Assembly (NCBI GenBank): GCA_029550925.1
Contig: JAKPGL010000232.1
Location: 1-44,419, forward strand
DNA: 44,419 bases
Source: Planctomycetota bacterium
Lineage (GTDB): Bacteria; Planctomycetota; Planctomycetia; Pirellulales; Thermoguttaceae
Direction of reading: 5' to 3'
Below the pieces are notes generated by a model. The model was not told the DNA's origin and ran no database searches. It was given only the letters and a program-made list of their open reading frames with translations. Every line of letters begins with the position of its first letter. The first letter of the stretch is position 1. This document shows positions 17,650 through 40,544 of this stretch, in pieces. Both the position numbers and the translations under genes were made by a program.

Positions 17650-17790
17650 CGTAACATTTTAGCCGAATGCAGTACCTCGTCATTCCCGCGCAAGCGGGAA
17701 TCCAAATTTTTACCGTCTGTTTATTTTCAACCGGATCCCCGTTTCCGCGGGGATGACAAAAGGGATACTCCGTTCTGCTGAAGTGGTACG
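17650..17790. repeat. Dispersed palindromic element, copy C
   Basis: A 141-base element between two glycosyltransferase genes. The left end CGTAACATTTTAGCCGAATG and the right end, read on the other strand as CGTACCACTTCAGCAGAACG, form imperfect terminal inverted repeats. Inside are the repeat core (17679-17704) and a second hairpin, CCCCGTTTCCGCGGGG (17737-17752). It has no coding capacity, like a miniature transposable element or a large REP-type unit. The rest of the 17601-17907 gap is AT-rich and holds no gene. Confidence 0.75.
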
Positions 17791-17907
17791 AAAAATCAAA
17801 TCTCTTATTTTTAGCTCTACTGTTTGATGATGCGAATTGCATCATCTGAATATATAAGAATTTTTCCTTAAAATTCTTATCTAATCATGAACAAATAGCC
17901 CTATATC

Positions 17908-20182: not shown

Positions 20183-21504
20183 GAAACCTCCCCCCCCTTG
20201 AAAACATTCCACCGGGTCCGCAAGAAAACTAAGCCAATAGGCAATAAAAGTCCGCCGTACGAAAGCATACAAGCAAAGAAATCCGTTCGATTGATTTCAA
20301 AAAAGGAATAAAAGAGGACTGCTTGAGTTGCTAGTACGAAAACATTTTTGGGCTGCCGGAGAAGCCAAACTTGAACACTTTGAAGAATAAATCCGATCAG
20401 GAGCCCGTATAGAGGAGGGCCTACTAAGCCCCAATTAGCATAGGCTGTCCCTACAAAAGGAGCAGGGGCATTTCCCTGATATGGCAAATCAGGAAATAGA
20501 CGCCGGTAAACTTCTTGAGAAATAGGGAAATACTCATATCCCGGGTAAAACAACCCTCCTATGCTAGCAAGTTTCCCGATCCCCCTACCATATAGAAAAT
20601 CGATTTGTTCTGGGAAAATTCGTATATATTCGAAATTCAACTTGGCAGGAGCATAGAAAATTCGTTCCTCAAGTCCGATCCAAATACTTTCCCAAGAACG
20701 AGAAGGATCGTGAAGAAAGAGTACGACAATAGGAATAGCGAATATCAGGATAGGAGCCAGAAGCATCACCCTAAATGGCATTCTTCCCTTTCGCAGAAGA
20801 TAGTAGAAGAGAAAGATTACAATAAATAAAACTGCCGGAGGAGAACGGGTTAGGGTCGCACTACAATAAACCAGAGCGAAAACGAAAACCACCGCGAGTC
20901 CTATCCATTGCTTTATCGACCATCGTTCTGTAGAAGCCGCCCCCAACCAACAGCTTAATATAAACGCCCATCCGAATTGTCGAAGGATAAAATATATATA
21001 GTTAAAAGGAGAAGGTAGAGTCGCGGTTACACTTTCCCGTAAATGAGCCAGGAAGTCGTATTCGCCGGGATGTAAAAAGGCTTGAAAAATGGGAGGAACG
21101 CCGGTTTCCAAGAAGAATAATATTGAAAAGAAAATCGCTATTCCGGTAAGTATAATAAGCCTTTTCCGTTCCCAAGAGAGAATAGCTGGCAGATCAGCGG
21201 AGTAAAATTTATCGATTTCTTCCGGATAGAAACGCCAAACTGCATTGGCCGTCAGAATCCCGAGTGGGATCGTCAGTACTCCCAAGAGTACTAATCCTAG
21301 CGTTAAATCTCCTTGGGGAGGTGCGTCGGAAATTACTATTTTGATAGAAGGGATAACGAGGAAAAAGAGATAAGCAAACCAAATAGTTACCGGAAGAGTC
21401 AGACGAGTCCATCGAAGAGGTTGCGTATGTTTAAGAAGTAAGAATCCAGCGATTCCTATTAGAATAACACCTACTATAAGAAGAAATTGGTCGATTGTTT
21501 CCAT
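20158..21504 (-). CDS. Wzy-like oligosaccharide repeat-unit polymerase
   Basis: A 448-residue polytopic membrane protein with about eleven helices and one large periplasmic loop in the second half (about 280-350, with RIFYAPAKLNFEYIRIFPEQ and FPDLPYQGNAPAP). That is the architecture of Wzy polymerases, which join lipid-linked repeat units on the periplasmic side. Sequence similarity in this family is always low, so the call rests on topology and on the place between wzx and the epimerase. It starts three bases after the wzx stop and overlaps the epimerase by 25 bases. The DNA is clearly AT-richer than the flanks: a hand count of 20761-20820 gives 24 G+C in 60, against 40 in 60 at 36121-36180. 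Confidence 0.8.
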   Translation of the reverse strand: METIDQFLLIVGVILIGIAGFLLLKHTQPLRWTRLTLPVTIWFAYLFFLVIPSIKIVISDAPPQGDLTLGLVLLGVLTIPLGILTANAVWRFYPEEIDKFYSADLPAILSWERKRLIILTGIAIFFSILFFLETGVPPIFQAFLHPGEYDFLAHLRESVTATLPSPFNYIYFILRQFGWAFILSCWLGAASTERWSIKQWIGLAVVFVFALVYCSATLTRSPPAVLFIVIFLFYYLLRKGRMPFRVMLLAPILIFAIPIVVLFLHDPSRSWESIWIGLEERIFYAPAKLNFEYIRIFPEQIDFLYGRGIGKLASIGGLFYPGYEYFPISQEVYRRLFPDLPYQGNAPAPFVGTAYANWGLVGPPLYGLLIGFILQSVQVWLLRQPKNVFVLATQAVLFYSFFEINRTDFFACMLSYGGLLLPIGLVFLRTRWNVFKGGEVSWRNAVSG

Positions 21505-21507
21505 ACC

Positions 21508-22890
21508 TCATCCTTTGATGTTATTTCTGACGTTTAAGTCTATGGAAGGGCGAGTACCCAATAGGCGACCACGCATGGTTTCCATTAAAAGAACCCCTTG
21601 CGTTAAATAAGCTATAGCTTCGGCGGCGGCATAGATGCCGACGATGGCCGCGGGTTCCCAGTGCAGTGCTGCCGCTATCGCTACGCTGCCGCAGACAGAA
21701 ATGCTATAGAACGTATCCCATACTAATTGAAGCCCTTGTCGTTCGGAGAGGAATAAAGTAGTCGAAACCGGAGAGACTACGAATTGTAAAAGTATAGCCG
21801 GGGCTAACATACGGGCAAATTGGCCGGCGGTTTCCCAGTTGTTTCCGAAAATAAATTTAAAAATTACCGGCGATAAAAAGTAAATAGCTAACATAGGCCC
21901 TGAGGCCAAAACCGCTAACCAAAAGATAAATTTCAGGAAGAAGGATCTACATGTTTGCGGCGAATTGCGGCGCCGTTCTGAAAATTCTCCTATATATACC
22001 CGCGCCAGATTTTGGCCCAAAAGGCTTGTCGGCACATGGAGCACCCAGTCGGCGAGCATCAGGTGGCCTAAAATCGCAGGAGGAAAGACGCCCGCCATGA
22101 TCAATTTAGGCAGGTGAGACGCGGTCCGATTCAGCAGAGTCGAGGGGAGGGTAAGGACTGGGAATCGCCAAAATCGTTTTGCGACCTTCCAGAGAGACCG
22201 AAAGGAAACCGTAGAAGGGAAAGCGGCAATCTGGGCGACAATTGGTCGTCCTAACCAGTTAATTCCCAAGGCGCGTCCTGCCAAATCTCCTACTAGAAGC
22301 CCTAAAGGGCCCCCTCTCGTCAAGCCCCAACCGAGTTGGCATCCTATCATCCCCGCCCCTTGATATATTTTAGTCCATGCAAGCCGGGTAAAAGCTTTTG
22401 TCCGGGCGGCGTAGTATGTAAGCGCTTCGTAGAGAGAAATGAAGAAACAAGCGGGGGCTACCAGCCATATATATTTTTCTAAACCCCCCGCACCGCCTTC
22501 GTAAACAAACATGGGCCTGAAACACAAAATGCCCATCAGCAACAGCGCTGTCATCAGGAGCAAAATCAAACCGCACAAGCTAACCAGGGAAATCGCTTCA
22601 GTTTCTTTAGTAGGTAAAGGAATTGCCCGTTCGTAGCCCAAGCATCCCACAGTGGTCAGAAGTCCTACCAGGGCGGTGAAGGCGGCCAAAACGCCAAAGT
22701 CGTCGGGTGTGTACAATCGTGTGAGCGCCGGAGCGGCAACCGCCGCCATCAGATGGGCGGCCGCGCTCCCCACAGTGAGGGTAGCTACCCCTTGAACCAC
22801 CTGGTTGCCAAGCACTTTTTTGGGAGAGGGCAGATTCGGAAGAAAAGGGGCTTTTTGTTTGGCAACAGGCGGGGAAAGGGTCGTCGTCAT
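21508..22890 (-). CDS. Wzx-type polysaccharide flippase
   Basis: A MOP-superfamily exporter of 460 residues with about twelve to fourteen helices, which moves lipid-linked repeat units across the inner membrane. The N-terminus after a short polar leader (TLTVGSAAAHLMAAVAAPALTRLY, then TPDDFGVLAAFTALVG) is characteristic of Wzx/RfbX proteins, as is the central KLIMAGVFPPAILGHLMLA. I chose ATG 22890 because it has AGGAG upstream and overlaps the stop of the wbpI-like gene in an ATGA junction. The in-frame start at 22977 would add a very basic, unlikely leader. Together with Wzy and the initiating transferase it defines a Wzx/Wzy-dependent pathway. Confidence 0.9.
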   Translation of the reverse strand: MTTTLSPPVAKQKAPFLPNLPSPKKVLGNQVVQGVATLTVGSAAAHLMAAVAAPALTRLYTPDDFGVLAAFTALVGLLTTVGCLGYERAIPLPTKETEAISLVSLCGLILLLMTALLLMGILCFRPMFVYEGGAGGLEKYIWLVAPACFFISLYEALTYYAARTKAFTRLAWTKIYQGAGMIGCQLGWGLTRGGPLGLLVGDLAGRALGINWLGRPIVAQIAAFPSTVSFRSLWKVAKRFWRFPVLTLPSTLLNRTASHLPKLIMAGVFPPAILGHLMLADWVLHVPTSLLGQNLARVYIGEFSERRRNSPQTCRSFFLKFIFWLAVLASGPMLAIYFLSPVIFKFIFGNNWETAGQFARMLAPAILLQFVVSPVSTTLFLSERQGLQLVWDTFYSISVCGSVAIAAALHWEPAAIVGIYAAAEAIAYLTQGVLLMETMRGRLLGTRPSIDLNVRNNIKG

Positions 22891-24011
22891 AGCGAGTTCT
22901 CCTGGAGGAGATAGGCGACGACTTTTCCGGCGGCTTGACCGTCCCCGTACTCTACGATTGGTTCTAAAGGAGTCCAAGGCGTCATCTGGGCAATGCGGTC
23001 AGGATTGGCCCCCACCACTCGGTTCCAACCGGTCTGCACCGTCTCGACCCATTCGGTTTCTTCTCGCAGGGTTACACAGGGCACGCGGTGGAAGTAGGCT
23101 TCTTTTTGCACACCGCCGGAGTCGGTAAGGATGAGGGCGGCCTCTTGTTCCAGGCGGATCATATCCAAAAAGCCGACCGGCTCGATGATCCGAAGCCCAT
23201 TGTTCCCGGAAGCGGCGTCGGCAAGTTCCGACAGTCCCCACTGTTGCAAGGCATGTCGGGTCCGCGGATGTAAAGGAAGAACCACCGGACGAGTTTTGCT
23301 CAATCGGCGAAGTCCCTCCCAGATTCCGGCCAGGCGATCCGGCTGATCCGTATTTTCGGCCCGATGGAGGGTGGCAAGGTAATAGTGTTTCGGCTGGAGC
23401 CGGAGGGTTTCTAGGATTCGGCTTTTTTGGCGGGCGATGGGGGCGAAGAGCAAGGCGGCATCGTACATCACATCGCCGACGTGAAACACTCCTTCGATAA
23501 TCCCTTCTCGGGCGAGGTTTTCCACCGCCGTCTGCGTCGGGCAGAAATGCAGTTGGGCCAAGTGGTCGGCGACTACCCGATTGATTTCTTCAGGCATTCG
23601 GCGGTTAAAAGAACGAAGGCCCGCCTCGACATGGGCGACTGGGATGTGAAGTTTGGCGGCGGCCAACGCCCCGGCCAACGTAGAGTTTGTATCTCCATAG
23701 ACCAAGACCCAGTCCGGTCGATGGGTTTCCATCAGGGGTTCCAATTTCTCCAACATGCGGGCGGTCATCTGGCCGTGCGGTCCAGAACCGACGCCAAGAT
23801 TTGCCGTCGGCGGCGGCAGTCCCAATTCGTCGAAGAAAATCTGACTCATTTGGGCGTCATAATGTTGGCCCGTGTGAACAATTTCTTCATGGAGAGACGG
23901 CGTACGTCCTTGCCGGTTGTGTTCGGCAATAGCCCGGCTGACCACCGCCGCTTTGACAAATTGCGGCCTGGCGCCAAGAACTGTCAGAATTCGCACACAT
24001 GGACGCGACAT
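22887..24011 (-). CDS. wbpI: UDP-2,3-diacetamido-2,3-dideoxyglucuronate 2-epimerase-like
   Basis: A non-hydrolysing UDP-sugar 2-epimerase of the WecB/WbpI family, 374 residues. Motifs are GARPQFVKAA (13-22), HTGQHYDAQMSQIFF, VYGDTNSTLAGALAA, VAHVEAGLRSFNRRMPEEINR, GDVMYDA and SGGVQKEAYF. WecB itself acts on UDP-GlcNAc. Here the neighbours wbpA, B, D and E point to the WbpI role, inversion of C2 of UDP-GlcNAc(3NAc)A to give UDP-ManNAc(3NAc)A, the last step of that route. The gene ends in an ATGA overlap with wzx. Family membership is firm; the exact substrate rests on context. Confidence 0.88.
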   Translation of the reverse strand: MSRPCVRILTVLGARPQFVKAAVVSRAIAEHNRQGRTPSLHEEIVHTGQHYDAQMSQIFFDELGLPPPTANLGVGSGPHGQMTARMLEKLEPLMETHRPDWVLVYGDTNSTLAGALAAAKLHIPVAHVEAGLRSFNRRMPEEINRVVADHLAQLHFCPTQTAVENLAREGIIEGVFHVGDVMYDAALLFAPIARQKSRILETLRLQPKHYYLATLHRAENTDQPDRLAGIWEGLRRLSKTRPVVLPLHPRTRHALQQWGLSELADAASGNNGLRIIEPVGFLDMIRLEQEAALILTDSGGVQKEAYFHRVPCVTLREETEWVETVQTGWNRVVGANPDRIAQMTPWTPLEPIVEYGDGQAAGKVVAYLLQENSL

Positions 24012-24087
24012 TTTGGACGATAAAGGTTCGGTTTACAATAGACGCCTTTTTTACCACAGAACCAACGACAATCGTCTTTGGGAGGTA

Positions 24088-24116
24088 CCTGTCGTCTGTC
24101 AGACGGCGGCAATCCA
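24088..24116. repeat. Short palindrome in the wbpB-wbpI gap
   Basis: The 139-bp gap contains a CGTCTGTCAGACG palindrome next to GCGGC and a short spacer ending in AACCCAGTC. The arrangement closely resembles the hairpin cluster upstream of rpmE (GACTGGGTT, spacer, CCGCCGCTG, hairpin). No gene is visible in the gap, although the neighbouring operon genes are packed tightly. It may be a repeat or a processing hairpin. Confidence 0.35.
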
Positions 24117-24150
24117 ACCCAGTCTCACCGACCGAGGTACTGTAAACTTT

Positions 24151-25098
24151 TTACGCCGCTTGCGGCAAACGGAGAGGTATCTGCGCCGGCGTTCCTACCG
24201 GCGTCGCATGACGGAGTTGATATACCAACTCGATAGAGGGTTTTGCGTCAGCGACGCCGAACCCTCGGCCAGCCAAGACCTCTTCATAAATCCGGGTATG
24301 TAGGTCAGTAAACCCTTCGGAAAATTCCACCTCTTGGCCGTCAATCCGAATGGATCGGTACGTGGTCTGGCCGGGTTTTAACCCCGTAGAGGGCAAATCC
24401 CGGCGATCGACCGAAAGGAACCAATGGACCCTGGCCCGCTGCAATTCCAGATAACCGCACGTACGGGTAGGTTCGGCCGCATAAACTTGGCTTGTTTCGA
24501 CCGGGCCGAATATCCAGATTAGCATGTCAAAAAAGTGAATGCCGATATTGGTAGCCAATCCGCCGGATCGACTGACGTCGCCTTTCCAAGAGTGCAGATA
24601 CCATTGGCCCCGGCTGGTGATATACGTCAATTGGACATCGTGTTTTTCGTCGCCCGGTTGGCGATATTGTTCATACAACGCCCGGATCGTAGGATGGAGA
24701 CGTAATTGGAGGACTGTATAGACTCGGCGGCCGGTTTCGGCTTCCAGTTCGGCCAAGGCGTCGCAGTTCCACGGGTTTAACACGAGGGGTTTTTCGCAGA
24801 TGGCATCGGCGCCTACTCGGAGAGCGAATCGGATGTGGGCGTCGTGGAGGTAATTGGGAGAGCAGATACTTACATAATGAATACGCTCCTGTTCGGAGCG
24901 GCGGCGGAGTTTTTCTACATGGCGGTCGAATCGCTCAAACTCGCGAAAATAGGCTACGTCGAAAAAGTAACGGTCCAAAATCCCTACGGAATCATGCGGG
25001 TCCACGGCGGCTACCAGCCGATTGCCGGTCTCTTTGATCGCCGTCAAATGACGCGGCGCTATATATCCGGCGACGCCTGTAATCGCAAAGTTTTTCAT
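24151..25098 (-). CDS. wbpB: UDP-N-acetyl-glucosaminuronate 3-dehydrogenase-like
   Basis: A cytoplasmic Gfo/Idh/MocA enzyme of 315 residues from ATG 25098. The N-terminus MKNFAITGVAGYIAPRHLTA, followed by VAAVDPHDSVGILDRYF and FERFDRHVEKLRR, is the distinctive WbpB/WlbA signature. The EKP motif (AICEKPLVLNPWN) supplies the usual catalytic lysine. WbpB oxidises C3 of UDP-GlcNAcA to a ketone and is coupled with the transaminase WbpE. Unlike the two Tat-exported members elsewhere in the window, it has no signal peptide. It lies between wbpA and wbpI, with repeat copy D just upstream. Confidence 0.92.
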   Translation of the reverse strand: MKNFAITGVAGYIAPRHLTAIKETGNRLVAAVDPHDSVGILDRYFFDVAYFREFERFDRHVEKLRRRSEQERIHYVSICSPNYLHDAHIRFALRVGADAICEKPLVLNPWNCDALAELEAETGRRVYTVLQLRLHPTIRALYEQYRQPGDEKHDVQLTYITSRGQWYLHSWKGDVSRSGGLATNIGIHFFDMLIWIFGPVETSQVYAAEPTRTCGYLELQRARVHWFLSVDRRDLPSTGLKPGQTTYRSIRIDGQEVEFSEGFTDLHTRIYEEVLAGRGFGVADAKPSIELVYQLRHATPVGTPAQIPLRLPQAA

Positions 25099-25123
25099 CC
25101 TCAGGGTCCTTCCTTTGGAAAAA

Positions 25124-25312
25124 CGTAACATTTCAACTGAATGGAGTAGCCTGCCATCCCCGCGAAAACAGGGAGCCAATATCCTAGGAACGGGCTACCC
25201 TGGCGTCCCTTCGGACAAAAGGAACCTCGGAACCAGACGCAACCAAGTCTGGATTCCCGCTTGCGCGGGAACGACAAGAGAGGGAGGGCCTCCATTTGGC
25301 TGAATTGTTACG
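25124..25312. repeat. Dispersed palindromic element, copy D
   Basis: A 189-base element in the wbpA-wbpB gap with the best terminal inverted repeats of the family. The left end CGTAACATTTCAACTGAATG pairs with the right end, which reads CGTAACAATTCAGCCAAATG on the other strand; only a few positions differ. Inside are two inverted, diverged core copies, at about 25155-25175 (weak) and 25252-25274 (GGATTCCCGCTTGCGCGGGAA). It carries no gene. Confidence 0.8.
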
Positions 25313-25412
25313 GGAAAACAAAGAAACGGCTATTTCTCCAATATCTTACGAGTACGTGTTCTGATGTTTTTGATAGTATAGTTTTGGAACGATCTTATTC
25401 TCGAAAAACCTT

Positions 25413-26741
25413 TTATGCTTTTACGATACGGGCTTTGGGCATCTGAACACGGGCCATGGCGTTTCGAGTGTCAATCACTAGCCGGGCGTGCTGGCCGAGC
25501 AGGGCGTAATCCACCGGCGTATGGTCCGTAGCGATAAGAACCGCATCATACCGAGCAAGGCTTTCGGCGGTTAACGGGACGGACTTCATTTGATATTGGT
25601 ATTTTCTTCCCGGATGCAATTGAGGAACGAACGGATCGTGATAATCCACCTCGGCGCCGGCGCGGAACAGAAGTTCCATCAACCGATAGCTGGGCGATTC
25701 ACGGTCGTCGTCCACGTCTTTTTTATAGGCGACACCGATAAGTAGGATTCGGCTTCCTTTGAGGCTCTTTTGCTCCTCGTTGAGGGCCTCGATCAGTCGG
25801 CTGACGACGTATTCGGGCATCGAGGTATTGATTTCGCCGGCCAGTTCGATGAACCGAGTGGTAATTTCAAACTCTCGGGCTCGCCAGGTGAGATAAAATG
25901 GATCAATCGGAATACAATGTCCACCGAGTCCTGGACCGGGATAAAACGGCATGAAGCCGAATGGTTTCGTGCTTGCGGCCTGGATCACTTCCCAGATGTC
26001 GATACCCATCCGCTGAAAGACGACCTTCAGTTCATTGACCAGAGCGATATTGACCGAGCGGAAGATATTTTCCAACAGTTTGGTCGCTTCGGCCGCATCG
26101 GGGCTGGAAACCGGGACGGTTCGAGGGACAATGGTTTCGTAAAGGGTACACGCTAGCCGAAGGGTTTCTTCTCCCAGGCCGCCGACCACCTTCGGAATGG
26201 TGCGGGTGGAAAACTTAGGATTTCCGGGGTCTTCCCGTTCGGGAGAGAAAGCCAAAAAGAAATCCACGCCCGCCCGTAAACCGGAGCGTTCCAGGATCGG
26301 CTGGACCACCTCGCGGGTGGTGCCGGGATACGTGGTGCTTTCCAGGATTACCAATTGCCCCGCGCGAAGCCGGGCGGCAATCGAGGCGGCCGTGTTTTCT
26401 ATATAAGAAAGATCGGGTTCCCGATTTTTCGTCAGCGGCGTCGGTACGCAAATCAGGATACAATCCGGTTCGTTCAGCCGGGAGAAATCGGCGGTGGCGT
26501 CGCAATTTTTCCCTCGGCTGAGCGGTTGAAGACGTTCGGCGCTAATATGACGGATATAAGACCGACCAGCGCGGATGGCCTCCACTTTTTTGACGTCCAA
26601 ATCGAATCCCAACACCGCAAAGCCTGCCTGGGCGAACTCAATGGCCAACGGCAAACCTACATAGCCCAGACCGATCACGCCCACACAGGCAGTACGTTGT
26701 TGTATCTTTTCTAGTAAGGCATCTGCCAAGGTATTTTCCAT
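25413..26741 (-). CDS. wbpA: UDP-N-acetyl-D-glucosamine 6-dehydrogenase-like
   Basis: A UDP-sugar dehydrogenase of 442 residues that oxidises C6 of UDP-GlcNAc twice to give UDP-GlcNAcA, the first step of the diacetamido-uronate route. Visible are the NAD-binding GLGYVGLP (24-31), ESTTYPGTT, FSPEREDPGN, the active-site cysteine C276 in GLGGHCIPIDP and the C-terminal domain segment YKKDVDDDRESPS. GGGAGGG precedes the ATG at 26741. The Tyr-rich YPGPGLGGHCIPIDPFYL region and the neighbouring wbpB, D, E and I favour UDP-GlcNAc over UDP-glucose as substrate. Confidence 0.93.
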   Translation of the reverse strand: MENTLADALLEKIQQRTACVGVIGLGYVGLPLAIEFAQAGFAVLGFDLDVKKVEAIRAGRSYIRHISAERLQPLSRGKNCDATADFSRLNEPDCILICVPTPLTKNREPDLSYIENTAASIAARLRAGQLVILESTTYPGTTREVVQPILERSGLRAGVDFFLAFSPEREDPGNPKFSTRTIPKVVGGLGEETLRLACTLYETIVPRTVPVSSPDAAEATKLLENIFRSVNIALVNELKVVFQRMGIDIWEVIQAASTKPFGFMPFYPGPGLGGHCIPIDPFYLTWRAREFEITTRFIELAGEINTSMPEYVVSRLIEALNEEQKSLKGSRILLIGVAYKKDVDDDRESPSYRLMELLFRAGAEVDYHDPFVPQLHPGRKYQYQMKSVPLTAESLARYDAVLIATDHTPVDYALLGQHARLVIDTRNAMARVQMPKARIVKA

Positions 26742-26868
26742 AAAGCCCTCCCTGGCTGGAATTGGAAAGAAGACCTTCTTGCGGGCGAACTCAACTTCCT
26801 TTCCAGGAGGAAGATAGGTAACGCTCCGAGGTTTTGTAGCAGGGTTCCATAAAATCTGCTAAGGGACA

Positions 26869-28041
26869 TTATGCCGCGGACCGGTTTTGTTTAGTTTTTT
26901 GTTCCTTGGATTGTTGACCGATTTGTTCTTCATAGAACTCGACAATGGCCCGCAAGACCTCTTGGCGTTCTTCGGGCCGAAGTTCCGGAAAGATGGGCAA
27001 GGCCAGCGTCTGGAGGGCGGCTTGCTCGGCGTGGGGATAATCGCCCTGCTTGCCGCCCAAAAAGGCCAAGGCCTCTTGAAGATGGAATGGCCGAGGATAA
27101 TACACCTCGCAGCCGATCCCCCGCTTGCGAAGATGCTCCATCAACTGATCCCGCCAAGGGGTCCGGATGACAAACTGATTGAACACATGACGACAGCCGG
27201 GAGCCGTAGTCGGGGGCTTCACGTATTTGGGGACCAACCCCTGGCGTTGGAGTTGGGCGGCGTACCAAGCGGCGTTTTCCTGCCGGGCCAGCGTCCACTG
27301 CTCTAAATAGGGCAGTTTCACCAGAAGCACCGCCGCCTGTAAGGCGTCCAGCCGAAAGTTACCGCCCACCAAACTGTGGTAGTATTTCGGCTTGGCCCCA
27401 TGATTTCGTAGGCGCACCAGGCGTTCAGCCAAGGCCGGATCATTGGTAACTACCAGGCCGCCGTCGCCCATACAGCCTAAGTTCTTGCTGGGGAAGAAAG
27501 AAAAACAGCCGATCGTCCCCAGGGTGCCTGCGTATTTGCCTTGATACGTAGCGCCGATGGCCTGGGCGGCGTCTTCCACGACGGCGATGTTCCGCCGCCG
27601 AGCCGCCTCCAGGATCGGGCCCATTTCGGCGCATTGGCCAAATAGATGCACCGGCAGGATCGCCTTCGTGCGGTCGGTAATCCGGGCGACCGCTTCATGG
27701 GGGTCGATGTTATAGGTCTCCGGATCAATATCTGCAAAGATCGGCCGGGCGCCCAGACGGACAATCGCCCCTACCGTGGCAAAAAAGGAATACGGAGTGG
27801 TAATCACCTCGTCGCCCGGCCCAACGCCCAGGGCCATCAATGCCATGAGCAGGGCGTCCGTCCCGGAGGAAACCGCCGTGGCATGTTGTACGCCGAGATA
27901 CTCGGCCATTTTCCTTTCGAGCATCTCCACCTTCGGCCCGTTGATATAGTGCGTGCTCCGAGCGGTCTCCAACAGGGCCGACTCCAATTCCTGCTGAAGG
28001 ACGGCGTATTGGCGAGATAGATCCAAAAGTGGGACGCTCAT
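26869..28041 (-). CDS. wbpE: UDP-2-acetamido-2-deoxy-3-oxo-glucuronate aminotransferase-like
   Basis: A DegT-family PLP enzyme of 390 residues that aminates the 3-keto sugar formed by WbpB. Landmarks are [20 protein letters not shown] (59-78), the cofactor Asp in [11 protein letters not shown] (154-164), the PLP lysine K186 in [14 protein letters not shown] and [11 protein letters not shown]. It begins within the last bases of the wbpD-like gene (ATGA overlap), so synthesis of the two is coupled. A short Gln/Lys-rich tail follows the conserved fold. Family and pathway are well supported by the intact wbpA-B-D-E-I set. Confidence 0.92.
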
Positions 28042-28736
28042 GCGGCTTTTTCCTTCGGAAGTTGTTCTGAAGAAGTTTCGTTGCGGCGAGTTAGGATGGG
28101 GGCAGACGTGCTGGGGTGCTCCTTGGACGGCGATTCCGCAGCTCCGCTCTCCGAAGGGATTTCGCGCCAGACCACGCCGTCTTGAAGAATATAGACGGCG
28201 CCGTCTTGGCCTTTGGCCCGGCCTGTCGTATCAAAGACCAATTTAACGCCTGTGGTATCGACCCAGCCGTGAAGCCGCCCCGGATTGCCATAGACCAACC
28301 CAAAAGCCGGTACATCTCTGGTAACCACAGCACCGGCCCCGATCATGGCATAAGGACCGATGGTATGGCCGCAGACAACGACGGCCCCCGCTCCGATGGT
28401 GGCCCCCCGACAGACCCGGGTAGGCCGAAACTCTTGTTTCCGTTCAATAAAGGCCCGCGGGTTGATCACATTCGTAAAAATCATGTGCGGGCCGCAAAAT
28501 ACCTCGTCTTCCAGAATCACCCCCTCGTAAATACTGACCCCGTTTTGGATTTTCACGCGGTCGCCGATCCGCACCCGTGGGGCGACGTAACAACCTTGGC
28601 CCAAAATACATCCCCGGCCAATCACCGCCCCGGACGAGACATGGCAGAAATGCCAGATTTTGCTTCCTTGGCCGATCTCGGCCCCAGGGTCCACGATGCT
28701 TGTCGGATGAATGAAGGTTTCCACAGGAGGAGTCAT
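28038..28736 (-). CDS. wbpD: UDP-3-amino sugar-uronate N-acetyltransferase-like
   Basis: A left-handed beta-helix acetyltransferase of 232 residues. Hexapeptide repeats run from about 10 to 160 ([23 protein letters not shown] and similar), and the [11 protein letters not shown] segment is typical of WbpD/WlbB. It acetylates the 3-amino group using acetyl-CoA, giving UDP-2,3-diacetamido-2,3-dideoxyglucuronate. A tail of about 45 residues rich in Ser, Glu and Pro goes beyond the usual length. It is the first gene of the leftward polysaccharide operon, so the operon promoter should lie in the gene-poor stretch to its right. The ribosome-binding site is weak. Confidence 0.92.
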
Positions 28737-31994: not shown

Positions 31995-33341
31995 TTATTC
32001 AAAGCGGGTAACTCCGGGCGTGGGCATGGGGTAGTTGCCCTGGGCGTCCGGTTTGGTGGGCGGATCGGCGTCCAGAGCTAGCCGCTGCGGGGCAATCACC
32101 CGCTTGGATGCCATCGCCTGTTCCCAGGTGATCACCTGTCCTGTATAGCCCACCCAGGTCATCATGATAGCCATCATGCTGCTTCGGGCCATGTAAAGGC
32201 CGTTGTTGATCGGCTGGCCGTTTCGGATCGACTGCAACAGGGCGCTCTGTTCCAGCTCAAACCGATTGCACGGCGATCCCTGGTATTGCCAGTTCACTTT
32301 GCCCACGATCCGGTTTCGCAAAAGGTCGCATCGGCCTTCCGTGCCGTAGAATCGGTCGGAGATTTCCGTGGCTGTGCCGTCTTGCTGGCGGCAGTAGCCA
32401 AACAGTTTCACGCCGTTGGCGTATTCAAACACAGCGGCGAAATGATCCCAGGCGTCGCCGTATTGTGGGCCGACCCGGCTTTGCCGACCGGCCATGCCCC
32501 AGCAGCGTACCGGCGGCTCGTCGCGCATGGCCCAAGCCGCCTTGTCCAAATTGTGCACCATGTTCAAGCCCGGCAAGTCGCAGGCCAACCAGAAAAAGTT
32601 ATACCAATCTCGCAATTGGTACTCCATTTCGGTCCATTCGGGACGGCGCGGCACAGAGCGCAGAAATCCGGTGTTGCAGATTTCCTCGATGGCCACGATC
32701 TGCCCGATGGCCCCGTCGTGCACCCGCTTCATGGTTTCCTGCACCCCGATGTCGTATCGCCAGGCCAGGCCGGAAACAATGGAAAGCCCCTTTTTCTTGG
32801 CCAGTTCCGCCGCTTCCAAAACCATGCGCACGCCGGGGGCATCGACCGCATGGATCTTTTCGCAAAAGACGTGTTTGCCCGCTTCCACCGCCGCTTTGAG
32901 ATAATGGGGATGGAAAAAGGTGGGCAGGGCCAAAAGGACCACATCAGAACACTCGATCACATGCTGATACGCATCAAACCCCAAAAACGCCCTTTCCTCC
33001 GGCACATCGACCCGATCGGCAAAAAGCGTTTGGAGATTTTTTCGGCTCCCCTGGAGCCTGTCTCGAAACACGTCGCCCATGGCGACCAGTTTGGTATGCG
33101 GATCGGCCCGGAGGGCGTCGGCCGCTGCGCCGGTTCCCCTGCCGCCGCAGCCCACTAGACCAATCTTCAAGATGTCGCTTCCCTGGGCGTGGACGGCCCG
33201 CTCCAGGGGCACTAGGCCCAACCCGGCCGCACCGGCCGCCCCTGTGACCGCCGCCCCTCCGCCAAAAATCCGCAAATATTCCCGCCGGGTCATGCGGGGG
33301 CTTGAGCAATTCTTGGGCTCTTGATTGCTGGTAGATCGCAT
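31995..33341 (-). CDS. Tat-exported Gfo/Idh/MocA family protein with altered EKP motif
   Basis: 448 residues; ATG 33341 is preceded by AAGGAGG. A twin-arginine signal (TRREYLR, Arg19-Arg20, then a Gly/Ala-rich hydrophobic stretch to about residue 52) predicts export of the folded, cofactor-loaded protein. The Rossmann loop GLVGCGGRG is at 61-69. The family EKP motif reads EKI (161-163) here: the lysine is kept but the proline is replaced. The paralogue at 4955 keeps EKP. Both have PINNG and YTGQVITWEQA near the C-terminus. It is divergent from the triple sulfatase with only 168 bp between, which suggests shared control and perhaps a role in processing sugars freed from sulfated glycans; that is inference. 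Confidence 0.86.
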   Translation of the reverse strand: MRSTSNQEPKNCSSPRMTRREYLRIFGGGAAVTGAAGAAGLGLVPLERAVHAQGSDILKIGLVGCGGRGTGAAADALRADPHTKLVAMGDVFRDRLQGSRKNLQTLFADRVDVPEERAFLGFDAYQHVIECSDVVLLALPTFFHPHYLKAAVEAGKHVFCEKIHAVDAPGVRMVLEAAELAKKKGLSIVSGLAWRYDIGVQETMKRVHDGAIGQIVAIEEICNTGFLRSVPRRPEWTEMEYQLRDWYNFFWLACDLPGLNMVHNLDKAAWAMRDEPPVRCWGMAGRQSRVGPQYGDAWDHFAAVFEYANGVKLFGYCRQQDGTATEISDRFYGTEGRCDLLRNRIVGKVNWQYQGSPCNRFELEQSALLQSIRNGQPINNGLYMARSSMMAIMMTWVGYTGQVITWEQAMASKRVIAPQRLALDADPPTKPDAQGNYPMPTPGVTRFE

Positions 33342-33509: not shown

Positions 33510-36500
33510 ATGCGCCGAGTTCTGATGGCTTCGGTAGCCGGGTTTGGCCTGGCTGTCTTGGCGGTACAGGTTTCGGCGGCTGAATCGGTCGAACCTGCCA
33601 AAATACCCAATCGGCCGAACATCGTTTTTATTCTGGCCGATGACCTGGGCGTGTATGATCTGGCCTGTTACGGACGCAGCGAGCATCACACGCCCCATCT
33701 GGACCGGTTGGCTTCCCAGGGGCTACGGTTTACCAGCGCCTATGCCGCCTCGCCGGTTTGTTCGCCCAGTCGGGCGGCTCTCCTGACCGGCAAAGACCCG
33801 GCCCGATTGCATCTGACCACGTTTCTGCCCGGTCGGCCTGATACGCCTTCGCAAAAACTGCTCCATCCTCAGATTGCCCTGCAATTGCCGCTGGAAGAAA
33901 TCACATTGGCCGAGCGGCTCAAGCAGGCCGGGTATGCTACCGCCTGCATTGGCAAATGGCACCTGGGCGGCCAGGGGTTCGGGCCGGCGGAGCAAGGGTT
34001 TGATTTTGTTCATCCTGGCAAGGCCAACACCACCCCTTCCGACGCCGAGGGCGGCAAAGGAGAATATGATCTGACCGTAGCTGCTGAACGGTTCATCCAG
34101 GAAAACCGCCATCGGCCCTTTTTCGTCTATCTTGCCCATAATTCGCCGCATATCCCGTACACCGCCCGGCAAGCCCTGATCGAAAAAAACGCCAAGGCCC
34201 TGGAGCCGGTCTATGCAGCGGTCATCGAAACCTTAGACGATTCGGTCGGCCGATTGCTGGGGACGTTGGATCGGCTAGGGCTAACGGATCGGACCATCGT
34301 CATCTTCACTTCCGATAACGGCGGCTTGCATGTGCCGGAAGGCCCGCATCGGCTGATTACCCACAACGGCCCCTATCGGGCAGGCAAAGGCTACTTGTAT
34401 GAAGGCGGCCTGCGCGTGCCGCTCATAGTGCGTTGGCCAGGCCGGGTGCCGGCCGGCAAAGTAATCCATCAGCCCATGATCCACACGGATTGGGTCCCCA
34501 CGCTTTTGGAGTTGGTGGGCCTGCCGGTGCCGAAGGACCTGGACGGCCAGAGCATGGCCCAGTTGCTCTGTTCGCCTGGCCAGCCTACCTCCTCAGAGCA
34601 AACCCAAAAAGAGAGCAGCCGACTGTTTTTCTGGCATTTTCCCCACTATACCAATCAGGGCGGCCGACCCGGCGGTGCGGTGCGCCAAGGCCCCTGGAAA
34701 CTCATCCAGCAGTACGAAACCGGCCAACTGGAACTCTATAATCTGGATCAGGATGTCGGCGAAACCACGAATCTGGCCGACGGCCAGCCGGAACTTGCCC
34801 ATCGGCTCTGCCAGGCCCTGGAAACCTGGCGGCGCAAGATCGGCGCCCAAGAGAACAAACCTAATCCGAATTTTGACCCGGCCCTGCACCGGGCTTTGTA
34901 CATCGACGTAGATCCGTCGAAATTCCATCCACAAAAAGCCAGCCCTGCTGAGCTCCAGCGGATGCAAGAGTGGCGCCGCCAGATGAACGCCGTCCTGCCC
35001 CGCCCAGAAAAACCCAAACCCAAAGCAACATCAAAACCCAAACCAGCATCTGAGGTTGAAAAAGCCCCGGTTGAATCGTTTCCGGCAAAACCGCCCTCGG
35101 CTGGCCAACCTACCCTGCAGGCCCCCAGGCCGAACGTGGTCATCATCCTGGCCGACGATATGGGCTATTCCGACCTGGGTTGTTATGGCGGGGAGATTAA
35201 GACACCCCATTTGGATCGGCTGGCGGTAGGTGGACTAAGATTTACGCAGTGTTACAATTCGGCCCGCTGCTGGCCGTCCCGGGCGGCCATTATGACCGGC
35301 TACTATCCCCAGCAAGTGCGGCGGGATAGCGTACCGGGCGTGCGCAGCGGCAACCAGGGTCAACGGCCTCCCTGGGCGCCACTGCTTTCCGAAGTGCTCC
35401 GGCAGCATGGGTATAGATGTTACCACAGCGGCAAATGGCATATCGACGGCTCACCGCTTCAGGGCGGCTTTGACCACAGCTACCTTTTGGAAGACCACAA
35501 TCGGTTTTTTACGCCGAAAAACCATCGGGAGGACGATCGGCCTCTGCCGCAGCCCGGGCCGGAAGACGGCTACTACGCCACCACCGCCATTGCCCAGTAT
35601 GCCGTCAAATACTTGCAGGAGCACCAGCAGCAGTACCGGGACCGGCCGTTTTTCCTCTATCTGTGTTTTACCGTCCCGCATTTTCCGCTTCATGCGCCGC
35701 AGGAGGCGGTGGCCCGGTATTTGGAGCGGTATCGGGTCGGCTGGAACGAGATCCAAAAAGAGCGAGGTCGGCGTCTGCGGCAGATGGGCCTAGTGCGGCA
35801 TGATCCGCCGCCGATGGAGCGCCATCTTGGCCCGCCCTACTACTTCCCCGAAGCGTTCAAGATTTTGGGGCCTGGTGAGGTCAATCGGCCCATCCCCTGG
35901 CAGGAGTTGACGCCGGAGCAACAGGCGTTTCAATCGGCCAAAATGGCCGTCCATGCGGCGATGGTCCATCTGATGGACGAGGCGATCGGCCAGGTGCTGG
36001 AACAACTGCGGAAGATGGACGCCTGGGAGAATACGCTCATTGTGTTTGCTTCGGATAACGGGGCCAGTGCGGAGATCATGGTCCGGGGCGACGGCCATGA
36101 CCCCAAGGCGCCGCCGGGAAGTGGACAGACGTTTCTCTGCCTGGGGCCCGGCTGGTCCAGCGCCTCCAATACCCCCTTCCGACGCCATAAGGTCTGGGTC
36201 CATGAAGGCGGCATTTCCACGCCGCTTATTGTGCATTGGCCGGCTGGCATCCGTTCGGCAGGCCAACTCCGGCACACACCGGTCCATTTCATCGACGTTT
36301 TCCCAACGGTGCTGGACCTGGCGGGTGTGCCGGCGCCCAAACCCGCAGAAGGAGAGTCGAAGCCGCCCATGCCGGGCAAAAGCATCGTGCCGCTTTTTGA
36401 AAAAGACGGCACCGTGCAGCATGAATATTTCTGGTTTTTGCACGAGGGGCATCGGGCCATCCGCTGCGGCGATTGGAAACTGGTGTCCGCCCGGGGCGAT

Positions 36501-38147
36501 CCCTGGGAACTGTACAACCTGGCCGACGACCGTGGGGAAACCAAAAACCTGATTTCCCAATACCCCGAAAAGGCCCAGGAGTTGGAAACCCTCTGGAACC
36601 GCCTTTGGGCGGAGTTTCAGCAGGATGCCAAGCGGGACCTGCCGCCGTCGCAGCTTCAGCCAAAGCCAAAGCCTCGTCCGGCCAAACCGGCCTCCCCGTC
36701 CCAACCTGAAAATGTCCAAAAAACCACTTCACTTTCTGGCCCCAAGCCGCCCGATCGGCCCAATGTGGTCTTTTTGCTTACGGATCAATGGCGGGCCAAG
36801 GCTACCCCGTGGGAAGGCGATCCGAACGTGCATACGCCGAACCTGGATCGGCTGGCCCGGCAGGCGATCCGGTTCGATCGGGCCATTTCCGTCTGCCCGG
36901 TCTGCACTCCGTATCGGGCCGCCCTGCTTACCGGCCGAGTGCCTACCACCACCGGCATGTTCATGAACGACCTGTATCTACCCGCTGAAGAAATTACCAT
37001 GGCCGAGCTGTTCCAGCAGGCCGGGTACCGGACCGCGTACATCGGCAAATGGCACCTGGACGGCCACGGCCGACAGGCCTACATCCCGCCGGAGCGTCGG
37101 CAGGGGTTTGAGTTCTGGATGGCCGCCGAATGTGATCATAATTATCTTAAGTCTCATTGTTACACCGGCCAAAGCGACCAGAAGCGGTTTTGGGAAGGCT
37201 ACGATGCTTATGCCCAGACGAAGGCGGCCGTAGAGTATCTTCGGCAGGCAGCTCGGCAGGGGGAGCCGTTTTTTTTGTTCGTCTCCTATGGGCCGCCGCA
37301 TTTTCCGCATCATACGGCCCCGCCGGATTGCCAGGCCCTTTGCCCGCCGGAGAAGATCCGTTTTGCGCCCAATGTGCCGCCGCAGATGCAGACGGAAAAG
37401 CTCCGGCAAGAGGCAGCCGGCTACTACGGCCACTGCGCCGCCCTAGACCGCTGTGTGGGCGACATCGTAAAGACATTAGAAGAGACCGGCTTGGCCGAGC
37501 GGACCATTCTGGTCTTTACTTCCGACCACGGCGAGATGCTTGGCAGCCAGGGCCTGCCCCCTTATCGGAAACAGGTGCCGTATGATGAGTCGGTGCGGGT
37601 GCCGCTTCTGGTGCGATGGCCTGCCCTGCACGGGCGCCAGGGCCGGGTCGTCCAGACGCCGATCAGCACCGTTGATCTTATGCCAACGCTCTTGGCCCTG
37701 GCCGGGCTGCCAGTGCCAAAAACCGTCGAAGGCGAAGACCTTTCGCACCTGCTGCGCGACGGACCGGCAGAAGCGGATCGGACCGTGCTGATCATGAATG
37801 TCGCCCCCTTTGCCGACAACTTCGAAGGCAAAGAATACCGAGGACTCCGCACCAGCCGATATACTTATGTTTTGGACCTCGAAGGCCCCTGGCTTCTGTT
37901 TGACGACCAGCGAGACCCGTACCAGATGAAAAACCTGGTGGGCCTGCCGGAATATGCAGAAGTTCAGCATCAGTTGGACCACCGGCTCCAGGCGATGCTT
38001 CGGCGGATTGGCGACGATTTTCGGCCCCGAGCGGAGTATCTGCGCCGATGGGGCTACGAGGTGGATCGCCGGGGCGCCATCCCCTACGGCCCTGACGCCA
38101 AAGTGCAATCGCCGCGAAAACCCACAGCCGCCCAACCGACGCCCTAA
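33510..38147 (+). CDS. Secreted triple-domain sulfatase (three tandem sulfatase modules)
   Basis: One continuous frame of 1545 residues encodes three complete type I sulfatases joined by Pro/Lys-rich linkers. ATG 33510 has AAAGGAGG upstream (GTG 33507 is the alternative) and a Sec signal peptide (about 1-24). Module 1 (about 35-490) starts RPNIVFILADDLG and has the formylglycine motif CSPSR (Cys84). Module 2 (about 540-1040) starts RPNVVIILADDMG, with CWPSR (Cys587). Module 3 (about 1083-1530) starts RPNVVFLLTDQWR, with CTPYR (Cys1132). All three keep the family GKWH segment and a SDN or SDH metal-site segment, so all could be active if the cysteine is converted to formylglycine; no maturation enzyme is in the window. 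Single-module sulfatases are usually about 450-600 residues. Sulfated polysaccharides are the likely substrates. Confidence 0.95.
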   Translation: MRRVLMASVAGFGLAVLAVQVSAAESVEPAKIPNRPNIVFILADDLGVYDLACYGRSEHHTPHLDRLASQGLRFTSAYAASPVCSPSRAALLTGKDPARLHLTTFLPGRPDTPSQKLLHPQIALQLPLEEITLAERLKQAGYATACIGKWHLGGQGFGPAEQGFDFVHPGKANTTPSDAEGGKGEYDLTVAAERFIQENRHRPFFVYLAHNSPHIPYTARQALIEKNAKALEPVYAAVIETLDDSVGRLLGTLDRLGLTDRTIVIFTSDNGGLHVPEGPHRLITHNGPYRAGKGYLYEGGLRVPLIVRWPGRVPAGKVIHQPMIHTDWVPTLLELVGLPVPKDLDGQSMAQLLCSPGQPTSSEQTQKESSRLFFWHFPHYTNQGGRPGGAVRQGPWKLIQQYETGQLELYNLDQDVGETTNLADGQPELAHRLCQALETWRRKIGAQENKPNPNFDPALHRALYIDVDPSKFHPQKASPAELQRMQEWRRQMNAVLPRPEKPKPKATSKPKPASEVEKAPVESFPAKPPSAGQPTLQAPRPNVVIILADDMGYSDLGCYGGEIKTPHLDRLAVGGLRFTQCYNSARCWPSRAAIMTGYYPQQVRRDSVPGVRSGNQGQRPPWAPLLSEVLRQHGYRCYHSGKWHIDGSPLQGGFDHSYLLEDHNRFFTPKNHREDDRPLPQPGPEDGYYATTAIAQYAVKYLQEHQQQYRDRPFFLYLCFTVPHFPLHAPQEAVARYLERYRVGWNEIQKERGRRLRQMGLVRHDPPPMERHLGPPYYFPEAFKILGPGEVNRPIPWQELTPEQQAFQSAKMAVHAAMVHLMDEAIGQVLEQLRKMDAWENTLIVFASDNGASAEIMVRGDGHDPKAPPGSGQTFLCLGPGWSSASNTPFRRHKVWVHEGGISTPLIVHWPAGIRSAGQLRHTPVHFIDVFPTVLDLAGVPAPKPAEGESKPPMPGKSIVPLFEKDGTVQHEYFWFLHEGHRAIRCGDWKLVSARGDPWELYNLADDRGETKNLISQYPEKAQELETLWNRLWAEFQQDAKRDLPPSQLQPKPKPRPAKPASPSQPENVQKTTSLSGPKPPDRPNVVFLLTDQWRAKATPWEGDPNVHTPNLDRLARQAIRFDRAISVCPVCTPYRAALLTGRVPTTTGMFMNDLYLPAEEITMAELFQQAGYRTAYIGKWHLDGHGRQAYIPPERRQGFEFWMAAECDHNYLKSHCYTGQSDQKRFWEGYDAYAQTKAAVEYLRQAARQGEPFFLFVSYGPPHFPHHTAPPDCQALCPPEKIRFAPNVPPQMQTEKLRQEAAGYYGHCAALDRCVGDIVKTLEETGLAERTILVFTSDHGEMLGSQGLPPYRKQVPYDESVRVPLLVRWPALHGRQGRVVQTPISTVDLMPTLLALAGLPVPKTVEGEDLSHLLRDGPAEADRTVLIMNVAPFADNFEGKEYRGLRTSRYTYVLDLEGPWLLFDDQRDPYQMKNLVGLPEYAEVQHQLDHRLQAMLRRIGDDFRPRAEYLRRWGYEVDRRGAIPYGPDAKVQSPRKPTAAQPTP

Positions 38148-39625
38148 CCTACCGAAGGGGAAGGGGACGATGGCGGCAGACGATCCGGCGGCACGATTTC
38201 GGCGATGTCTCGGATCCAGCCCCGGCGCACCTGTTCCAGCGGGCAATACCAGAAGCAGCGGGCGCAGGAGACGCAGCGGGCGCGGTCCGTCTGGTAATCC
38301 GTCCGGTGCGGGTAGATAGACAAATGGATCAATTTCCCGCCGACCACCAGTCCCACCCAGGCCCCGAGCAGCATCCCGGCCCAGCGGTACCACCGCCGCA
38401 GCCGAAGGGCCTCCGCATAAAGCTGGCCTTTGGATCGGCCGTGCGCCCGGAAGGCTTCCAGGGCCTGCGTGGTCGGCAGCGGAATGCCTTGGGCCTGGGC
38501 CGATTCTTCGAGTCGTACTTGTTCGGCCAGCCGAACGGTCGGATGCATCCAGGCCAACGCCCGATCCAGCATAGCGCCCAACCCGGCGCCCAGAGCTACC
38601 AGGATGGGCAAGGCCAGGAGCATGACGGCCAGACGCCGCCGGGCTATGGGCCGGTGGGTCGGTTCCAGCGGCGCACTGGGCGTCTGGATCGCCCCATAAG
38701 GACACGCCTCTTCACACAATCGGCAATTGATGCACGCTTCCGGGGCGATCGAGACATGCCATTTGGAACATTTGGCTAGTAGTCCCAGGATTGCCCCGTA
38801 AGGACAAAGGAATCGGCAATACGGTCGGCCCACAAAGACGCCCAACAGCAGCACACAGGCGCCGAAAAGCAGCAAGGCCCGGTCGCCGCCAAGGCGGAAA
38901 AAGTTCACAAATGGGTCGTATTGGCAGATCAAAAAGCCGGCCCCGGAAGCCGCCCACACCACGGCCAACCCCAAATATACATAAGGAACAAGCCCCAGGA
39001 CGTGTTCCAGCCAGTTGGGCACTCGCACAGGTCGGAGGGCAGCCAACTCCTGAATCGCCCCCAACGGGCAAACCGCTGCACAAAAGGTCCGGCCGAAAAA
39101 CAACGTAGCCACAAGCGGTAACAGAAAAATCACTAGCACCGACCAGGGAACCAGAAAGGCCGGATCGGCCAATCCGGCCGCCACATTCTGAATGGCCCCG
39201 ATCGGGCAGACGCAGCCTTTGCGCCAAAAGCCAAGCCACACCAGGCTAACCACAGCCAGGAGCAAAAGCCCAGTTCGGCTTCGGCGGCGTAGGGCCAGCC
39301 AACTTGCCAGGGCCAGCCCAACGGCCAGATAGCCCACATCAAGCCATTCTTGCCAGGTCGGTTTCGGAGCGGCCCGCTGATAGGCCGTCTGCCAATCCGG
39401 CGTTTGATACCCGGGAATCTCCGGCCGAACCAGCAGCTCTTCCGCCCAACCGGACGAGGGAAACCCCTGGGCGGAACAAAAAACCAGTATGCCCATGAGG
39501 GCAACCAATAACCGTGGTTTCGCTTTTCCGAGGTGGATTCCGACGGCAAATCTGCCGCCGCCTGTTTCGGCATCGGCCGCCTTTCGACTGGCCGGAACAA
39601 TCCTCGGTCGTCGTGGCCGGTTCAT
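38144..39625 (-). CDS. NapH/NosR-like membrane polyferredoxin
   Basis: A 493-residue membrane iron-sulfur protein. A signal-like helix near the start and several further helices carry CP motifs on loops: CVCPIGAIQ (138), CAAVCPLGAIQ (182), CRFLCPYGAI (270). A cluster motif CINCRLCEEACP (298-309) and a C-terminal CVSCARCFWYCP (about 450-462) complete it. NapH/NosR/CcoG-type proteins pass electrons from quinol or to periplasmic partners. ATG 39625 has AAGGAG upstream and an ATGA overlap with the ferredoxin gene; the longer frame from 39739 would run inside that gene. Its stop codon overlaps that of the convergent sulfatase gene. The partner enzyme is not known. Confidence 0.85.
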   Translation of the reverse strand: MNRPRRPRIVPASRKAADAETGGGRFAVGIHLGKAKPRLLVALMGILVFCSAQGFPSSGWAEELLVRPEIPGYQTPDWQTAYQRAAPKPTWQEWLDVGYLAVGLALASWLALRRRSRTGLLLLAVVSLVWLGFWRKGCVCPIGAIQNVAAGLADPAFLVPWSVLVIFLLPLVATLFFGRTFCAAVCPLGAIQELAALRPVRVPNWLEHVLGLVPYVYLGLAVVWAASGAGFLICQYDPFVNFFRLGGDRALLLFGACVLLLGVFVGRPYCRFLCPYGAILGLLAKCSKWHVSIAPEACINCRLCEEACPYGAIQTPSAPLEPTHRPIARRRLAVMLLALPILVALGAGLGAMLDRALAWMHPTVRLAEQVRLEESAQAQGIPLPTTQALEAFRAHGRSKGQLYAEALRLRRWYRWAGMLLGAWVGLVVGGKLIHLSIYPHRTDYQTDRARCVSCARCFWYCPLEQVRRGWIRDIAEIVPPDRLPPSSPSPSVG

Positions 39626-40281
39626 CCCTGATGCTCCTTGGCGGCCAGGATGGCTTGGGCTTTGCGTTTCAGCAGATACGGCCGGCTGGCCGGCACCCGG
39701 CGAAACGCTTGGGCCGGGCAAGCCAAGGCGATAGTGCATTGGTTACAGTTACAACACCGGTCATGCCGAACCTGCAAATACAGCGAGCCGTTCATCATCG
39801 CACACCCGACTACGCATTTGCCGCAGCCAATACAGAGCGGTTCGTCGATGTGGTATTCAAACCTGGGCACGCCGGCCTGCTCGGCTACCAGGACCCGGCG
39901 GATGGCCCCGGTGGGACAGATTTGGTTTTCGGCCGCTGTGGTTCGTTCTCGATGGTTCGGGTCGAAATAGCCGGTGCATACGTCGCACATCGCACACAGC
40001 GGATAAAACTGCACCGCTTTGACAGCCGACGGGTCCAGCACACACTCGGTCGCGCAGCGTCCGCAGGCGGTGCAAAGGTCAGGGTCGATCTGCCAGACCA
40101 TTGGCTCTTTCTCGCCGCTATGGGCGGCCAGACCCACTGCGCCAGCGCCCAATAACACCGCTCCGGCCGCTCGAACTCCCTCGGTCAAAAACTGGCGCCG
40201 GTCCACGGACGTGAGCGGCCCGGACCGAGAATCGCTTTTTTCCGGCCTAGGGCTTTCCGGCGAATGCATGGGACAACTCAT
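39622..40281 (-). CDS. Tat-exported ferredoxin with four [4Fe-4S] motifs
   Basis: 219 residues with a twin-arginine signal (VDRRQFLTEG, Arg28-Arg29, then a hydrophobic stretch to about 53). Cysteine groups are at 70/73/76/80, 96/99/102 with 122, 150/153/156/160, and 176 or 177/179/182/188. This gives four probable [4Fe-4S] clusters, in a NapG-like arrangement. It should sit in the periplasm and exchange electrons with the membrane polyferredoxin, whose gene overlaps its stop by four bases. The first group (CTACGRCATECVLDP) is slightly unusual in the spacing after the third cysteine. No redox enzyme gene is next to it apart from the propeller proteins upstream. Confidence 0.88.
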   Translation of the reverse strand: MSCPMHSPESPRPEKSDSRSGPLTSVDRRQFLTEGVRAAGAVLLGAGAVGLAAHSGEKEPMVWQIDPDLCTACGRCATECVLDPSAVKAVQFYPLCAMCDVCTGYFDPNHRERTTAAENQICPTGAIRRVLVAEQAGVPRFEYHIDEPLCIGCGKCVVGCAMMNGSLYLQVRHDRCCNCNQCTIALACPAQAFRRVPASRPYLLKRKAQAILAAKEHQG

Positions 40282-40370: not shown

Positions 40371-40544
40371 TCCCCTCTCCCTTGGCGGGAGAGGGTCAGG
40401 GGGAGGGGGTCTTTCCTCTCTCCCCTGGCGGGGGAGGGTCAGGGTGAGGGGGAAGGAAAAGGGCATCGTCGCCTGTTTTTTTGTTCCCCCTCACCCGGTC
40501 TCGGCTTCGCCTCGGCCGGCCTCTCCCACCAAGGGAGAGGCGAG
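40371..40544. repeat. Cluster of three CCCTCTCCC-type inverted repeats
   Basis: Three related units lie in the gap between the ferredoxin and the small Cys-rich gene. Two are in one orientation (40371-40409 and 40414-40452, centred on CTTGGCGGGAGAGGGTCAGG or similar) and one is inverted (40485-40544, ending CTCTCCCACCAAGGGAGAGG). Each folds into a strong hairpin. A further copy is at 43668-43705. Such repeats are found in many high-GC genomes as intergenic elements. There is no gene in 40282-40548. Confidence 0.75.

Follow-up and report, generated by a model that had tools for sequence, protein, structure and literature searches.

Sulfatases are required to degrade the sulfated glycans of algae and hosts, and to our knowledge nearly all that have been characterised are single enzymes. 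Several proteins that carry sulfatases within a larger architecture have been described. Kim et al. reported a gene with two sulfatase domains in the planctomycetes P1 and P2 and explained it as a gene fusion (Kim et al., 2016, PMC4807772). In the portion of that paper considered here, the P1/P2 gene resembles the protein described below in that unrelated sulfatase genes are fused in one planctomycete protein, but it has two domains rather than three, and the two proteins are compared by description and not by sequence. The SulfAtlas paper also mentions proteins with several FGly-sulfatase modules, in a passage that gives no module number, organism or function (Barbeyron et al., 2016, PMC5066984). 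P36 of Formosa agariphila is likewise described as multimodular, but it combines one S1_25 sulfatase with a glycosidase, a GH78 rhamnosidase, the two acting in consecutive steps on ulvan oligomers (section consulted of PMC8511951). No description of a protein with at least three sulfatase modules was found in a literature search by titles and abstract openings, in which subscription journals and preprints were little covered. If a multi-sulfatase fusion is defined as a single frame holding at least two sulfatase modules that differ in origin, the protein reported here is one; such proteins are thus already known, and what appears to be new, or hardly described, is that two separate lineages combine three to five different modules.

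The window (the whole stretch of DNA analysed) is one entire 44.4-kb contig from a Thermoguttaceae planctomycete, whose genome (G000) comprises 4.9 Mb in 233 contigs. The features of the sulfatase locus, with its modules designated M1, M2 and M3, are as follows.

31995..33341, minus strand: GFO/IDH/MocA oxidoreductase, divergent neighbour; also at the G001 locus and beside the stand-alone M1 of G044
33510..38147, plus strand: three-module sulfatase frame, 1545 aa; open frame with three PF00884 matches
33510..33581, plus strand: signal-peptide-like N-terminus MRRVLMASVAGFGLAVLAVQVSAA, by eye from the translation; MRR start as in G001 and G002
33609..35009, plus strand: M1, S1_16-like sulfatase (PF00884 at 33615-34520); nearest solved structure 9FO1 (S1_16), E 6.5e-118
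33759..33773, plus strand: M1 formylglycine motif CSPSR (Cys84), sequence motif
35010..35120, plus strand: linker 1, Pro/Lys-rich; 37 aa in the window, 114 aa in G001, 76 aa in G002
35121..36659, plus strand: M2, S1_4-like sulfatase (PF00884 at 35130-36329); nearest solved structure 7ALL (BT4683, S1_4), E 7.7e-88
35268..35282, plus strand: M2 formylglycine motif CWPSR (Cys587), sequence motif
36660..36749, plus strand: linker 2, Pro/Lys-rich; 30 aa in the window, 35 aa in G001
36750..38099, plus strand: M3, S1 sulfatase (PF00884 at 36759-37706); nearest solved structure 2QZU, E 3e-55
36903..36917, plus strand: M3 formylglycine motif CTPYR (Cys1132), sequence motif
38144..39739, minus strand: 4Fe-4S (Fer4) protein, convergent neighbour; also at the G001 and G002 loci

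The initial annotation had described a single 4.6-kb frame with three full sulfatase modules, and this is borne out by an uninterrupted open frame of 1545 aa plus stop on the plus strand (a stop-free run of 1546 codons has a chance of about 7e-26 at the base composition of the window) and by three near-full-length matches to the Pfam Sulfatase profile PF00884 (profile positions 1-300, 1-301 and 1-300 of 301). A GTG at 33507 offers an alternative in-frame start, while the MRR start at 33510 is common to the aligned frames of the window, G001 and G002 and has AGGAGG a few bases 5' of it. From this start the N-terminus resembles a Sec-type signal peptide and the protein, called secreted in the same annotation, is probably exported. 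The modules span approximately residues 34-500, 538-1050 and 1081-1530. Each has its own Cys-x-Pro-x-Arg motif and GKWH segment, three of each, as had been noted, and the linkers described as Pro/Lys-rich contain 40% (linker 1) and 43% (linker 2) Pro+Lys versus 14% in the whole protein. The gaps between the modules contain no hydrophobic segment (12-residue hydropathy peaks at -0.23 and -0.83), and a single-sequence structure prediction of M2-M3 gave a mean pLDDT of 37. The pairwise identity among M1, M2 and M3 is only 32-40% and each has its own relatives outside the protein, so a recent tandem duplication is excluded, in agreement with the earlier reading.

Ten catalytic positions were aligned (D44, D45, C84, R88, K149, H151, H214, D269, N270 and K293 in M1 numbering). 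M1 and M2 both carry DDCRKHHDNK at these positions and M3 carries DQCRKHHDHK; the same DQ and DH recur in 2QZU, the nearest solved relative of M3. The loss of metal or formylglycine residues that had been raised as a possible objection was thus seen in none of the three; all modules keep the formylglycine cysteine and the metal ligands and are apparently intact, and dead modules are excluded by this alignment. The strict PS00523 pattern is fitted by M1 only, M2 and M3 fitting a relaxed form.

The modules differ in their closest solved relatives. M1 is nearest to 9FO1 and then to 6UST (E 3.9e-84), both treated as S1_16 in the relevant passages of PMC11760155, which describe AMOR_S1_16A (9FO1) as an exo-acting 4-O kappa-carrageenan sulfatase. 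Unlike the window protein, that enzyme is reported as a single sulfatase. The same passages call Trp79 of AMOR_S1_16A conserved in S1_16; sought in M1, this residue is replaced by Phe105, and M1 is therefore termed S1_16-like and not a member. For M2 the best matches after BT4683 (7ALL), an S1_4 enzyme acting on 3S-Gal (PMC10154620, in the part cited), are AtsA (1HDH, E 4.7e-66), also listed as S1_4 (PMC5066984, in the part cited), and then a different family at E 3.2e-47; BT4683 and AtsA, though the closest solved relatives of M2, are chains of one-sulfatase length (523 and 536 aa). M3 has several relatives at similar distance, with 8DI0 (E 1e-54), 6S21 (E 5.4e-51) and others close behind 2QZU, and no one S1 subfamily, S1_11 and S1_8 included, stands out as the best. 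Judged by nearest solved structures only, M1 and M2 would act on galactose-type sulfates. The whole protein scores 515.5 bits against the NCBIfam arylsulfatase model NF010322 and 435.2 bits against the choline-sulfatase model TIGR03417, but it exceeds the curated cut-offs (481 and 433 bits) because three module scores sum; single modules reach 129-234 bits, below both, and both names were rejected for the whole protein.

Two further genomes of the same genus carry the locus. In G001, M1-M2-M3 are in one frame with 84% identity to the window protein, and in G002 only M1-M2 are present, in a frame that ends with a normal stop and has the convergent Fer4 genes downstream as in the window. The M1-M2 joint is hence common to three genomes (84% and 81% identity) and M1-M2-M3 to two; the downstream genes are identical in kind at all three loci and the upstream gene at two, the oxidoreductase gene having no match in the short G002 contig. 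The linkers had been singled out as places where a stop or frameshift might have been missed; none was found there, and the three-module frame recurs in the second genome. That separate genes were joined by an error of assembly or reading frame could be suspected given that both relatives are metagenome-assembled and that the window genome is in 233 contigs, yet the recurrence of these joints with matching flanking genes rules it out, and we regard it as refuted in practice.

Between G000 and G001, dN/dS is 0.114 for M1, 0.080 for M2 and 0.091 for M3, at dS values of 0.77-0.96, and each module is under purifying selection. The signal region and the linkers are far more diverged than the modules. 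Linker 1 measures 37 aa in G000, 114 aa in G001 and 76 aa in G002, which means that no fixed geometry is kept. Part of the G001 linker matches a repeat at 40486-40542 of the window (86% over 57 bases), so that insertion of a repeat may have lengthened it. The same repeat also occurs twice in the G002 contig.

Linkers that are Lys-rich, fast-evolving and free in length would also suit a polyprotein, exported whole and then cleaved at its Pro/Lys-rich linkers to yield three ordinary sulfatases, with joint export and equal dosage as the only gain. Homologues of M1, M2 and M3 that exist as single-module frames are consistent with it too, but no cleavage motif common to the three linker-1 sequences could be seen by eye in the alignment, and we consider such processing rather unlikely.

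The absence of M3 from G002 was examined at two levels. In this genome, which is 93% complete, the sole match to M3 at E <= 1e-30 was G002's own M1, and a search of its contig for an M3 remnant picked up only the similarity that M3 shares with M1 and M2. The rpoB tree, (G000,(G001,G002)), groups G001 with G002 (support 97), which points rather to M3 having been lost in G002. In the M1 tree G002 comes first, an order that would also allow a later gain of M3 by the others.

The relatives of the modules were sought in 119 genomes of the window's family (match cut-off E <= 1e-110, at most four candidates scored per genome), 38 of which gave matches. Among these candidates, frames of more than 1000 aa with an M2 match occurred in the three genomes of the window genus and in G047. 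The G047 frame was discarded as an M2 fusion, as on reading it proved to be a separate frame of 592 aa. At this locus (L164:7318-12309) three adjacent, unfused sulfatase frames lie on one strand, the first being the M2 homologue with 64% identity. Single-module homologues are found in other genera for M2 (75-78%; G043, G105 and G103), M3 (66%; G040) and M1 (68%; G009), and those of G043, G105, G040 and G009 have, on reading, their own N-termini. Since the counterparts of all three modules are single-module proteins, the three-module frame is, as far as these homologues tell, a gene fusion rather than an assembly error or a recent duplication. Some of the single-module homologues end in Lys/Pro-rich tails, which suggests that such tails became the linkers. 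Other two-sulfatase frames in the window's family are those of G004, G008 (at a contig end) and G009.

Another genus (G044, L158:6470-8464) has M1 as a stand-alone frame, again with the oxidoreductase gene next to it. This M1 is 87% identical to the M1 of G001, with an rpoB identity of only 75-76%, and in a five-sequence M1 tree it groups with G001 (support 94); a tree keeping the window genus together was rejected by the AU test (p 0.0015). Its tail resembles the G001 linker by eye. For these reasons we doubt that G044 preserves the state before fusion; a transfer between genera, which is likely, or the breakage of a fused copy would both fit better.

Long frames with an M2-like match were also sought across the order, in a sample of 246 genomes with at most two candidates scored per genome. 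Outside the window's family, all such frames of more than 1000 aa belonged to one family, f8, except those of G313 and G229, which on reading were separate frames and were dismissed as M2 fusions. An M2-like match at E <= 1e-130 is present in 60 of the 72 f8 genomes, seven of which have M2-like frames of 428-578 aa. The other 53 have frames that reach 1000 aa or more; with a module counted from 170 matched residues, their M2-bearing frame holds two modules in 30 genomes, three in 17, four in five and five in one; ten of these 53 frames reach a contig end (eight two-module ones and those of G239 and G278), and the third module of G213 is without a C-x-P-x-R motif. The five-module frame (G228, L190:5941-14034) encodes 2461 aa from the chosen start, and its modules keep the ten catalytic positions except for one His replaced by Gly in the last. 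The view in the initial annotation that three-fold sulfatase fusions are very unusual therefore holds for the searched literature but is not supported by the genomes, since 23 of the 72 in f8 carry three to five modules in one frame.

The recurring motif order in f8 is [CNPSR]-CWP(S/T)R-[CSASR]-C(S/A)PTR-[CAPSR]-[CTPSR], with members left out in places and with exceptions in label in G278, which ends in CVPSR, and G332, which ends in CSPSR. As only M2 was treed among the f8 modules, equal motif labels are no proof of orthology. Missing members can adjoin as separate frames, such as CNPSR just upstream in L211, L213, L214 and L219. The f8 multi-module loci are L035, L189-L206, L209-L224 and L229-L246, and in several of them further sulfatase genes adjoin. 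The inter-module gaps of the M2-bearing frames comprise 6-93 residues and their best 12-residue hydropathy reaches 1.8 and 1.77 in two of them, values given here with no control set; a hidden start may be present at some of these gaps. Long f8 frames also occur at 48-50% G+C (L195, L197 and L200) and are accordingly not an effect of G+C content. Another type of two-module frame was observed in f8 (L035:2745-5648, L205:8895-11999 and L210:321-3173), in which the first module is sulfatase-like but without C-x-P-x-R and the second is M1-like and carries CSPSR or CSPTR; in L035 the motif Arg is, by eye, apparently replaced by Leu.

A FastTree analysis of 53 M2-type modules placed the three of the window genus in a clade (0.973) next to the single-module genes of G043, G105 and G103; the 19 f8 modules in the set formed a second clade (0.904). 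On this tree, the fusions of the window genus and of f8 are separate events. In a phylum survey, M2-type matches at E <= 1e-110 were obtained in 17 of 199 genomes, and in the 14 of these outside the order the M2-type frames measure 426-836 aa, the one exception being a frame of 998 aa that lies at the end of its contig.

These surveys also bear on a near-neutral accident, in which sulfatase genes were fused through the loss of a stop and a signal peptide and the joining brings no gain. Planctomycetes often have sulfatase genes side by side, according to the portion of Kim et al. considered here (Kim et al., 2016, PMC4807772), f8 shows single-module frames as well as two to five fused modules, and M3 is absent from G002. 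The three-module frame has, however, been kept in two genomes at the above dS with purifying selection on every module, and M2-type sulfatases were fused in two separate clades, which makes an accident of this kind quite improbable in our view.

We contend that the window protein is, with somewhat better than even probability, a secreted, tethered poly-sulfatase that arose by fusion of three different single-module S1 sulfatase genes. Three such genes would have been joined into one, an FGE- or anSME-type maturation enzyme would convert each of the three cysteines to formylglycine, and different positions of one sulfated glycan would then be desulfated by the three sites, while flexible linkers hold the modules together and so fix their ratio and place. 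Both the maturation at all three sites and the tethered action are proposed from sequence features, and the sequential desulfation machine suggested in the initial annotation would be a possible form of them. The three complete active sites, the three-module frame and its purifying selection in G001, the single-module homologues, the fast-evolving linkers, the non-hydrophobic gaps, the FGE-domain matches in the genome and the parallel case of f8 argue for the tethered protein; neighbours other than glycoside hydrolases or lyases, the M1-M2 frame of G002, the unfixed length of linker 1 and the breadth of the FGE-domain profile argue against it. A similar solution would have arisen separately in f8 and gone further, with up to five modules. 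It can be proposed, as a tentative generalisation that we hold at somewhat less than even probability, that Pirellulales-type planctomycetes repeatedly turn sulfatase gene clusters into poly-sulfatases, secreted as single chains with three to five different functional active sites, that strip multiply sulfated glycans cooperatively, with the window as an independent three-site case and f8 as a series from one to five modules. Chains of three to five different sulfatases would offer a natural test of whether tethering helps and would provide ready enzyme sets for multiply sulfated substrates; they also form a graded series, with separate modules at one end and a long fused protein at the other.

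The window genome has 16 PF00884 matches, three in this frame and the rest in frames of 450-675 aa, and four matches over the cut-off to PF03781, the FGE domain, a profile that is wider than true FGE. The immediate neighbours of the sulfatase gene encode the oxidoreductase and Fer4 proteins and not glycoside hydrolases or lyases. Further upstream, at about 11300-28700 on the minus strand, the window contains genes for a UDP-GlcNAc 2-epimerase, a UDP-sugar dehydrogenase and a DegT aminotransferase, interspersed with what appear to be glycosyltransferase genes, and this region is probably an exopolysaccharide cluster.
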